This document shows, piece after piece, positions 17,001 through 20,908 of a stretch of DNA of 41,730 nucleotides. The translations under genes were made by a program, and so were the position numbers. Source of the stretch: Nitrososphaerota archaeon (lineage in GTDB: Archaea > Thermoproteota > Nitrososphaeria > Conexivisphaerales > UBA164); the NCBI GenBank assembly GCA_029786595.1, contig JAFLXO010000002.1, forward strand, positions 20,281-62,010, in the 5' to 3' direction. The first letter of the stretch is position 1. Every line of letters begins with the position of its first letter. The notes beneath the pieces are model-generated. The model was not told the DNA's origin. It did not search any database and saw nothing but the letters and a program-made list of their open reading frames with translations.

Positions 17001-18326
17001 ATGCAAGGACAGGATGTTAAAAGGCAATATGACCACTTGTTTGAGCTCCTAAAGGAACACCAGAAATGGATTAGTGAATCGATAACGCTGATAGCTTCGG
17101 AGAACGTGCCGAGCCCAGCGGTAAGGGAGGCCATTCTCTCCGACTTTGGTAATAGGTATGCAGAGGGATGGCCGGGAGAACGCGTATACGCCGGATGCAA
17201 ATACATAGATCAGGTTGAAATAGCTGCGCAGAACCTGGGCAAGGAGCTATTCGGGGCAGAGTTTGTTGATGTTAGGCCCATAGCGGGCGTTAATTCAAAT
17301 TTAGTTATATATACGGCGTTCACCGATCCTGGAGATCGTATCCTCTCACTTTCCATTCCGAACGGCGGCCATATAACATATGGCAAGAAAGAGCTTGGGG
17401 GTACGGCCGGGGCTGTTCACGGCCTGGTCGTAGAAAATATTCCATTCGACGACGAAGAAATGAATATAGATGTTGACAGGACAAAGCAGAAGATAGAATC
17501 GATGATCAAGGAGGGAAAGAAACCGAAGATGATCGTTTTTGGCGGCTCGGTCTTTCTGTTTCCGCACCCACTTAAGGAGCTATCAGATTACCTGAAGTCG
17601 AACGAAATTCTTACGATGTATGATGGGGCGCACGTCCTCGGATTGATAGCGGGAGGCCAATTCCAGGACCCACTTAGGGAGGGGGCTGATTTTATGACTG
17701 GGAGCACCCATAAAACCTTGCCAGGCCCTCAGGGTGGGATCGTGGTTAGCTTCAACAAGTTCTCGGACAAGATCAAGGGATCGGTATTTCCAAGCAATAC
17801 CTCCAACCACCATTTACACCATATGGCCGCTAAGGCCGTAGTCTTTGCAGAGATGCTTGCATTTGGCAAGGATTATGCTACCAATGTGATCAGGAACGCC
17901 CAATCGCTTGCCGAGGCACTGTCCGCCAGAGGCCTGAAGGTGATCGGAGGAAGAAATGGATTTACGAAATCACACCAGGTTTTGGTTGATGTAACTGCCC
18001 AAGGCGGAGGATGGGGGGTTGAAAGGGAACTTGAGGATGCAAACATCATCCTGAATAGGAACATGATACCTAGCGATATAAAGGAGGGAAGGCACTTTAA
18101 GGACCCTGGGGGAATAAGGATGGGCACTCAGGAACTGACCAGGCTGGGCATGGGACGGTCAGAAATGGAATATATAGGCGATCTGATATATAGGATTGTA
18201 GTAAAAAAGGATGATCATGAAAGGATAAGGTCAGAGATAAGCGCGCTTAAAGGGAAGTTCCCAAAGGTGAGCTATGCATTCGATAACCAGCAAGATGCAT
18301 ATTCATATATAACGCTGAGAAGATAG
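17001..18326 (+). CDS. glyA: Serine hydroxymethyltransferase
   Basis: LIASENVPSPAVREAILSDFGNRYAEGWPGERVYAGCKYIDQVE, MTGSTHKTLPGPQGGIV PLP-lysine motif. Confidence 0.97.
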   Translation: MQGQDVKRQYDHLFELLKEHQKWISESITLIASENVPSPAVREAILSDFGNRYAEGWPGERVYAGCKYIDQVEIAAQNLGKELFGAEFVDVRPIAGVNSNLVIYTAFTDPGDRILSLSIPNGGHITYGKKELGGTAGAVHGLVVENIPFDDEEMNIDVDRTKQKIESMIKEGKKPKMIVFGGSVFLFPHPLKELSDYLKSNEILTMYDGAHVLGLIAGGQFQDPLREGADFMTGSTHKTLPGPQGGIVVSFNKFSDKIKGSVFPSNTSNHHLHHMAAKAVVFAEMLAFGKDYATNVIRNAQSLAEALSARGLKVIGGRNGFTKSHQVLVDVTAQGGGWGVERELEDANIILNRNMIPSDIKEGRHFKDPGGIRMGTQELTRLGMGRSEMEYIGDLIYRIVVKKDDHERIRSEISALKGKFPKVSYAFDNQQDAYSYITLRR

Positions 18327-18406: not shown

Positions 18407-20908
18407 TCAGGTGTACTCAGAAAGTGAAAACTGCTTCTTTGACTTGACTAGCGACCTAAGCGCTTCTATGCTTATGTTTAGTTCATCTAGGGTGCCGCCC
18501 TCTAATTTACCGGTCAGGAGATTGGCCTTGTTGATTATGGATTTGAGCTTTTCGATCGAATATGAAGGCTCAAGCTTGCCTCCGCATACAGCGCACACAT
18601 TTCTCAGTCCAGCAACGCCTGCTGGTGCGCCGCATGACGCACAGATCAGCCCCCATGTGGATAGAAGCTGCTCCAGACCGCTAAGGAGCGGTAATACGAC
18701 CTCCCTCACCACTACATTTAAGCGGTTATCAGGGGTAGCCGCCATCCTATTTATAGCGTCAAGCTGTAACCCGGCTAAATAGAACGGGTCATCAATCTGT
18801 TCTGCATTGAGAAGGTTGCGCGGCCTGCCGACGTTAATTGAAACCATAGACGGATGAGATACGGCTGGATGCTTGAATAAAACCAGCTTTCGTTCAGGGT
18901 GTACATATAGGCCCGAAAAGTTCAAAAGGAGATCGCCAAGCAGAATTATATTTACGGAGAGGCTAGGCGCTGCCCTGTTGATTGTAAAAACCCATTCGTC
19001 CCTAGCAAGGCCTGACTCTCCATGAAGTATTCCAACGACTCTGCCCAATAATCCAATTCGTGAGCCGGCATCCAGTCCAACTATCGATCGGCCCAATAAA
19101 TCGCTTACCGATTGTAATTTGTAGTATGGCTCCAGCCCATACACTCTCTCCAGCTCATCATCTATGTACCTAGAGGCTTCCAGGAGCGCGTTCGCCGCCC
19201 TTACAGGTAACATTATTTCGTCGACCTTCAGTGCCTGGCCAGATTTATTAGAATATGCCACCATCATATTCCTATCCCAACTGTCTGTAGCCAGTTGCAC
19301 ATCTACCTTGACAGTAACTATCCCCGTCCTTTGCGCCATCAGTGAGTGGTACTGTCTAACCAGCGCCTTGCCCAAATTCTCCAGCTCGGTATTATCTACG
19401 GGCGTAATCCCCTTTAGGGGTTCCAATGGCTTTAGAGAGACCCTATGCGACTCATATTGTAACAGAGGGCGTACAGAAATTTCGTTGCTATATTCTCGTA
19501 CCGTCAAATGACCACAGTCAGGGCAGGTGGCAGAAGTGAGGCGTTTTTTACAATATGCACAGGTATATACCGCTTCCGTGATCTCCCCACATGTGGGGCA
19601 AATTCGGTATGGTGTTTCAGTCATACAGTGAACGCAGTAGCGCAGAGGTGATCTGACGACAACCCTGTCATCATCCAACAGGTTTCCGTTCATTGAAGGA
19701 AATATTCCGTGGGCCGTCTTAACCGGCTTGGCTTTGTTTAGTTTTAATGGTATTACAAGGGTTACCGGCTGACCTGCAGAGACCATTTTAAATCCACAAC
19801 CAGTTTCAAGGGCATCCAAGGAGGTCAAGCCTTTGATATCAAGCCCCTCAAGTATGCTGGCCAAGACTTCACCGGGATATCCACCCACCAATAGCGCTCC
19901 ATTTTCATATCCGGTCAGGATACCCATATCTGTTAACGCGCTGCTGGCCACAGCCCTAAAATGCGCAGTTCCATCGAGGATTCCAATAAATCCCTCTTTC
20001 AACGATCTCAGCTCGTCAAAGGAAAGCGTATGCAGTGGCAGTGAAAAGTTTGGATGCAGGAAGCCGCTAGTTCTTGCCTGTTCAAGCGCTTGATTTACAT
20101 TCATAGGCACGCTAGTGAATTTATAACTGTAGTTGAACAGCCCCCTCTCCATCATCGCGTCAAGCACCCACGATGGCGCGAGAAGTTCACCCATATCAAG
20201 CAGTTTAGGTCTGGCGGCATCAGCAGCCGTAGGGTTGGTGCTAGGCAGCGTGCTTGGCGGAGCTACCTCGTCGGAAAAATACAGGAATAATCTTTCTCCC
20301 AGCCCCGTTATATGGCACGCATAGGATGTAGATGATAAGCCATACAATTCGGCTGCGGCCTGATGTGCGATTATCATACGGGAGAATTGCGACCCCTGAT
20401 AGAAGCGAAGGCGAAAACTGCCTCCAGTAAAGCCCATCTTAAGGAACAGCGCTGGTGTATTGATACCATTAACATGATGTTGAAACTCTTGGCCTGCTGC
20501 ATCACACCCATAGCCTGCGCCTGTTGGTCCTCCAATTGAAGATGTTGTATAGCCGCTGGCTACAAGCGCTGAGTTTGTAATCGTCATTATGTGTTCTGCC
20601 ATAGCTCGGTTGGTGCTGTACTTCCGAACATTGGCGCTTTCAATTACAGCCGAATGTCCATTGAAGCTGATAATCCGAGGGGGGATTCGGTAATATTCTG
20701 AAGCAAAATACAAGCGCAGTGCATGGCCAAGGCGTTCTCCCTTGTACACGCCTGACTGGAGGTCCATGGTACTGGGGACCTTGTCAAACCGCATAGCTCT
20801 GGATGCGCGCTCAAGTAGTTCCACTGGGGTTTTCCTTATTACTATGCCGCGGTTATCGGGGTCCAGCCTTTTACTTCTTATCGAATTTACCAGCTCACTT
20901 AGTTTCAC
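18407..20908 (-). CDS. Divergent PolD large-subunit (DP2)-like protein, predicted catalytically inactive
   Basis: Collinear DP2-like blocks: LLDMGELLAPSWVLDAMMERGLFNYSY, FLHPNFSLPLHTLSFDELRSLKE, CVHCMTETPYRICPTCGEITEAVYTCAYCKKRLTSATCPDCG, PVRAANALLEASRYIDDELERVYGLEPYYKLQSVSDLLGRSIVGLDAGSRIGLLGRVVGILHGESGLA, LLLNFS, C-terminal CASCGAPAGVAGLRNVCAVCGGKL. The DP2 catalytic NxDxD segment is replaced by RAAPSLS. Confidence 0.75.
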   Translation of the reverse strand: MKLSELVNSIRSKRLDPDNRGIVIRKTPVELLERASRAMRFDKVPSTMDLQSGVYKGERLGHALRLYFASEYYRIPPRIISFNGHSAVIESANVRKYSTNRAMAEHIMTITNSALVASGYTTSSIGGPTGAGYGCDAAGQEFQHHVNGINTPALFLKMGFTGGSFRLRFYQGSQFSRMIIAHQAAAELYGLSSTSYACHITGLGERLFLYFSDEVAPPSTLPSTNPTAADAARPKLLDMGELLAPSWVLDAMMERGLFNYSYKFTSVPMNVNQALEQARTSGFLHPNFSLPLHTLSFDELRSLKEGFIGILDGTAHFRAVASSALTDMGILTGYENGALLVGGYPGEVLASILEGLDIKGLTSLDALETGCGFKMVSAGQPVTLVIPLKLNKAKPVKTAHGIFPSMNGNLLDDDRVVVRSPLRYCVHCMTETPYRICPTCGEITEAVYTCAYCKKRLTSATCPDCGHLTVREYSNEISVRPLLQYESHRVSLKPLEPLKGITPVDNTELENLGKALVRQYHSLMAQRTGIVTVKVDVQLATDSWDRNMMVAYSNKSGQALKVDEIMLPVRAANALLEASRYIDDELERVYGLEPYYKLQSVSDLLGRSIVGLDAGSRIGLLGRVVGILHGESGLARDEWVFTINRAAPSLSVNIILLGDLLLNFSGLYVHPERKLVLFKHPAVSHPSMVSINVGRPRNLLNAEQIDDPFYLAGLQLDAINRMAATPDNRLNVVVREVVLPLLSGLEQLLSTWGLICASCGAPAGVAGLRNVCAVCGGKLEPSYSIEKLKSIINKANLLTGKLEGGTLDELNISIEALRSLVKSKKQFSLSEYT

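Follow-up and report, generated by a model that had tools for sequence, protein, structure and literature searches.

In the archaeal order to which the source genome belongs (Conexivisphaerales), PolD has probably been retired as an enzyme, its dead DP1-DP2 pair being retained as a non-enzymatic scaffold of the replisome. The gene from which this reading starts is an 833-residue ORF with a GTG start (open frame of 845 codons) on the reverse strand of the window, the whole stretch of 41,730 nucleotides that was analyzed. By profile, sequence and predicted fold this ORF is a genuine homolog of DP2, the large subunit of PolD. Every sequence block quoted for it in the original prediction is present at 18407-20908 (-), and its description there as a shortened, fast-evolving DP2 relative distinct from the ordinary housekeeping polymerase holds, the catalytic loop being lost and the N-terminal domain (NTD) unrecognizable. 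The same prediction overlooked the loss of the catalytic aspartates, which became the main point of the analysis. The protein and its neighbor are laid out as follows:

17001..18326, + strand: glyA (serine hydroxymethyltransferase; Pfam SHMT), convergent with the DP2 gene
18407..20908, - strand: homolog of DP2 (PolD large subunit) with 833 residues, inactivated and truncated; profile, phmmer and predicted-fold matches
18413..18433, - strand: C-terminal PIP-box-like motif QFSLSEY, residues 826-832, corresponding to the PCNA/primase-binding peptide of DP2 (PMC7101311)
18584..18643, - strand: Zn-III of the C-terminal domain (CTD), residues 756-775; its P. abyssi DP2 counterpart binds DP1 (PMC6355029)
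18896..19237, - strand: remnant of the DPBB-2/catalytic domain, residues 558-671, aligning with PF24846 positions 88-201
18950..18982, - strand: catalytic-loop position, residues 643-653, INRAAPSLSVN against KRRDxDGDxDS; the equivalents of P. abyssi D956 and D958 are both missing
19514..19636, - strand: Zn-I and Zn-II modules, residues 425-465, eight Cys in invariant alignment columns
20450..20827, - strand: low-confidence N-terminal part, residues 28-153, at the place of the canonical DP2 NTD (PF03833), which is unrecognizable here

The DP2 homology originally proposed is borne out by several searches. Pfam PF24846, the DP2 catalytic domain, matches the ORF with 73.6 bits (E 1.8e-20, cut-off 24.3), and PF24844, the central domain, with 24.9 bits, barely above its cut-off. 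The match to NCBIfam PRK04023 (124.6 bits, E 2.7e-36) lies far under the equivalog cut-off of 1269 bits, as expected of a divergent member. When the PDB was searched with phmmer, the significant matches were PolD chains only (E about 1e-17, residues 424-674). An AlphaFold model made from 21 homologs has a mean pLDDT of 70.7 and a pTM of 0.66, and its comparison with known structures by Foldseek, a check suggested at the outset, put PolD DP2 chains on top; eight of them are the sole matches at E <= 0.001, the best at 2.3e-31. The predicted fold is of the DP2 type. The top matches include P. abyssi PolD, with a modest TM-score (TMq 0.48) and a high rmsd that leave the domain arrangement of the window protein uncertain. 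The 11th match, 5vbn, is a complex of the human Pol epsilon CTD and B-subunit and is not significant.

Polymerization by P. abyssi DP2 needs D956 and D958 in the DPBB-2 loop (PMC4996933), residue 956 being the first D of DGDED in the phmmer alignment numbering. At this loop the window protein reads APSLSV. None of the 16 DP2s aligned from the order, which belong to families f1, f2 and f3, has the DGDxD loop, and canonical DP2s of the same class do have it. The GRPEK, VRGGALRVLNDG and RSAGGT blocks show the same pattern in the alignment, lost in 16/16 order proteins and kept in five canonical class sequences. Family f2 proteins have the canonical layout (1071-1109 residues) with RCSGVAD, NCRGRSD or NYENNNT as the loop, and those of f1 and f3 are both dead and truncated, with open frames of 687-845 residues. 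At the DNA level, a degenerate pattern written for the canonical loop matched 222 of 300 class genomes and none of the 20 from the order, and its reversed control gave no match among the genomes listed. This pattern misses DGDGD and DGDSD, for which reason alone f11, f16, f17, f19 and f22 fail; it is therefore too narrow for class-wide counts and was used for the order alone, alongside protein searches. The phyletic distribution comprises dead DP2s in three families, and in the DP2 tree a single branch (99/97) separates the order from 15 other sequences, a grouping to be taken with caution because of long branches.

What persists of DP2 are the zinc modules, the helical CTD region with Zn-III and the PIP-box-like tail. 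Invariant across the order are 12 Cys, in Zn-I, Zn-II and Zn-III, together with E510, K514, R518, G529, D659 and Q826. Among 14 dead DP2s, mean pairwise identity is 0.37 over Zn-I/II, 0.43 over Zn-III and 0.42 over the last 11 residues, and 0.18-0.27 over the rest of the same proteins. A PIP-box-like C-terminal peptide of the QxxLxx[FY] type, a short motif match, occurs in 16/16 order DP2s and reads QFSLSEYT in the window; the C-terminal peptide of P. abyssi DP2 is a binding site for PCNA or primase (PMC7101311), and in that protein DP1 is bound by Zn-III together with the helices of the CTD (PMC6355029). The KxRRxP motif, which makes contact with DP1, is present in f2 and f3 and lost in f1, where the DP1 interface may consequently be altered. 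For DP2, dN/dS (Nei-Gojobori, own script, computed for this subunit in seven pairs) is 0.19 between the window gene and that of genome G001 and 0.09-0.27 in the six other pairs, which indicates purifying selection on the protein. A pseudogene or assembly artefact was considered and is ruled out by these ratios, by the intact reading frames and by recurrence of the gene across independent MAGs.

The window ORF is the DP2 of its genome, a vertically inherited positional ortholog of canonical DP2 and not the paralog that had been supposed. In the source assembly (1.61 Mb, 110 contigs, 82.7% complete) it is the single match to PF24846; the canonical DP2 that was to be sought in that genome did not appear, and a profile search found no PF03833 (DP2 NTD) match anywhere in it. 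The original refutation clause turned on its being the only DP2 and on a catalytic centre recoverable elsewhere in the alignment: it is the only DP2 found, and no such centre can be recovered. Protein searches detected DP2 in 53 of 61 relatives, each compatible with one gene, and in 18/20 genomes of the order with matches free of internal stops; DP2 and DP1 alike were found in all seven order genomes of at least 90% completeness. The same searches returned no second or canonical DP2 in any of the 20, including G012, a single contig of 1,593,902 bases that is 99% complete. The gene order points the same way. The convergent (tail-to-tail) DP2-glyA pair seen in the window also occurs at the canonical DP2s of families f5 (L049) and f7 (L051, L052), as well as at the full-length f2 genes (L042, L044, L046), and this linkage, common to the canonical f5 and f7 loci, places the window gene at the ancestral DP2 locus.

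What of the second subunit? DP1 (PF04042) was found in 17/20 order genomes. No DP1 lies beside the window ORF, as had been stated, yet the ORF is not partnerless: the search of its genome recovered one DP1 on another contig (C26; locus L147, 6938-8302), with its exonuclease motifs lost. In the motif table GNHD is replaced in 17/17 order DP1s (GELD in the source genome) and so is NSGxWQ (TAPMWN), and GHVH has become GHAG in the source genome. Many members of the order have lost SDLH, GD and GHVH, which some of f2 and f3 retain; all 15 canonical DP1s of the class retain GNH(D/E), GHxH and NSG. As for co-occurrence, the single order genome with DP2 and no DP1 is 73% complete, and two genomes that are 85-86% complete (G013, G018) have neither subunit; some lineages may therefore be able to do without the pair. 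The DP1 gene of the source genome diverges from a fen1-like gene (L147, 5619-6638), and in f3 genomes (L063, L067) DP1 adjoins an Orc1/Cdc6-like gene, both neighbors being named by eye from their sequences.

PolB is the likely replicase of these genomes. DNA_pol_B matches occur in 18/20 order genomes, and in most the longer PolB carries exonuclease motif I, motif A (DFASLYPSII) and motif C (YGDTDS). The intact PolB of the source genome (G000:C55, L083 199-3318) has 1040 residues and a mini-intein-like insert that divides motif C (YGD...HNTDS); a similar insert is seen in the PolB of the f2 genome G016 (L086). A second PolB of 711 residues (G000:C61, L100 1378-3510) has the motifs DFDSQYPS and YGDVDS, and similar short PolBs occur in most f1 and f2 genomes. 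No exonuclease I motif was recognized in this shorter protein by motif search. Its dismissal as an inactive polymerase was considered and rejected, a looser pattern recovering motifs A and C in most copies.

With neither active site left, why would both subunits be kept? The structural or scaffold role listed in the original prediction stands as the best guess, suggested by the retained parts together with literature on distant archaea and by analogy with Pol epsilon. Its opening steps can be read from the proteins themselves: DP2 has lost its polymerase residues, DP1 its exonuclease residues, and DP2 has been retained under selection. The remaining steps are conjectural. The kept Zn-III/CTD and the co-occurrence of the subunits suggest that the DP1-DP2 complex still assembles, and the PIP-box-like motif that the DP2 C-terminus would bind PCNA or primase. 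DP1 would contact GINS, as in Thermococcus, where DP1 binds GINS15 in a GINS15-DP1-GAN contact (PMC6741145). By the Pol epsilon analogy, the dead heterodimer could then tether PCNA or primase to GINS and the helicase at the fork, DNA synthesis having presumably been handed over to PolB. There is precedent for an inactive polymerase half at CMG in Pol epsilon (PMC6265327, PMC9675812), the non-catalytic C-Pol2 and Dpb2 being the essential parts of the yeast enzyme (PMC6265327).

Other readings deny that the order lost its PolD activity at all. The protein might still be a polymerase with relocated metal-binding residues, other acidic residues having taken over catalysis. DPBB-2 is partly recognizable and D659 invariant, as this would require, but D659 is just as invariant in canonical DP2, where it lies outside the catalytic loop; with D956, D958, further conserved blocks and the NTD all gone, and the proofreading motifs of DP1 lost in parallel, a relocated active site is very improbable. 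We give next to no credence to the window ORF being a paralog beside a canonical DP2 that escaped assembly. Incompleteness of the source genome and its many contigs would leave room for such a gene, yet none turned up elsewhere in the order, the single-contig G012 included, the dead gene itself fills the canonical glyA-linked locus, and DP1 is inactivated too.

If the loss of activity is accepted, the pair may serve another purpose or none. Inactivated PolD could be an accessory of repair or fork restart, for instance a PCNA-bound DNA clamp or a zinc clamp that regulates PolB or damage tolerance. Persistence of the zinc clamp modules, the DPBB-2 remnant and the PIP-like tail would suit such a role, as would the fen1-like gene adjoining DP1 in the source genome and the second PolB of most order genomes; however, no feature specifically indicates repair, and presence in all seven of the most complete genomes under strong constraint fits a core function equally well, so that we regard a repair role as possible and rather unlikely. 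A decaying vestige, with PolB having replaced PolD and the genes on their way out as in Nitrosocaldaceae, is less probable still, and we consider it doubtful. The gradation of dead proteins, full length in f2 and truncated in f1 and f3, resembles decay, and neither DP2 nor DP1 turned up in the tested genomes of f9, a family in the same class (G066, G076, G136; a single PolB match in G066 and likewise in G076; cf. PMC5817080). Against this stand the dN/dS of 0.09-0.27 in seven pairs, matches without internal stops in 18/20 genomes, and persistence over three families in which the zinc ligands and the PIP Gln do not vary. A retained replisome scaffold accordingly remains the preferred reading.

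Related changes are seen beyond the order. In the phylum sample two genomes outside the class carry a dead DP2. That of G449 (f58, L154) has 1032 residues and reads LCNGQED, i.e., NGQED for DGDED, with GEHD in its DP1; that of G458 (f61, L157) has 751 residues and lacks the loop, and DP1 was not found in its genome. Both DP2s carry LDKFF peptides at their C-termini. A test of a single origin for f58, f61 and the order neither rejected nor established it (AU p 0.18, with long branches); possibly these are independent inactivations of PolD. As dead DP2s are retained outside the class as well, the conversion may be recurrent in archaea. We lean towards the broader proposition that a PolD holoenzyme with both subunits dead became a conserved non-enzymatic replisome component, by a conversion that may recur in archaea and parallels Pol epsilon. 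Separately, the f14 genome G165 (L115) has a full-length DP2 of 1139 residues reading RRDCSGDSD, in which the first catalytic Asp is Ser and the remainder looks canonical; this may reflect recent inactivation or an error of sequencing or assembly. In three other f14 genomes DP1 was not found, nor any convincing match to DP2.

To our knowledge, PolD is essential in every archaeon tested. A lineage that has both subunits and lacks the chemistry separates the structural from the catalytic role of PolD, making a second, non-enzymatic job of a replicative polymerase at the fork directly testable. It also supplies intermediates of PolD loss and PolB takeover, from full-length dead through truncated dead to absent. 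A takeover of PolD by PolB has been invoked for the origin of the eukaryotic polymerases with inactive DP1-type B-subunits.

A literature search that took in the main text of PMC7544198 found no account of a dead DP2 that is retained, or of its orthologous position, two-stage decay, constraint or occurrence outside the class, and no paper on Conexivisphaera with PolD in its title or abstract. The nearest published observation is that of Kazlauskas et al. (2020), whose main text describes a Nitrososphaeria group (two MAGs and one DP1) with inactivated DP1 and without active DP2, and calls conclusions on it premature (PMC7544198). This Nitrososphaeria_GB_GCA_002499005-like group (UBA160, UBA164), which according to that text also lacks a CTD-bearing PolB, is probably the same lineage as the order analyzed here. 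A retained dead DP2 is not described for it in the main text, and Supplementary Figure S16 may show one (PMC7544198).

Compared with P. abyssi DP2 (PDB 6hms/8ppt, PRK04023), the window protein has the same block order, Zn-I, Zn-II and Zn-III, a DPBB-2 remnant, C-terminal helices, the PIP peptide and the predicted fold, but lacks D956/D958, GRPEK, VRGGALRVLNDG, RSAGGT and a recognizable NTD, and is about 270-440 residues shorter than canonical DP2. Loss of PolD has been reported in Ca. Nitrosocaldus islandicus (PMC5817080), and Nitrosocaldaceae resemble the order in having lost PolD activity, with PolB left as the candidate replicase (PMC5817080); they have lost both PolD genes, however, whereas the order retains both in dead form. 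In Pol epsilon, Pol2-C and Dpb2 likewise combine a dead large subunit bearing a zinc CTD with an inactivated DP1-type B-subunit, and the CTDs and B-subunits of Pol epsilon and PolD are described as homologous (PMC6355029; main text of PMC7544198). The dead core of Pol epsilon is a PolB core, whereas that of the window lineage is the two-barrel core of PolD, for which a scaffold role is proposed here.
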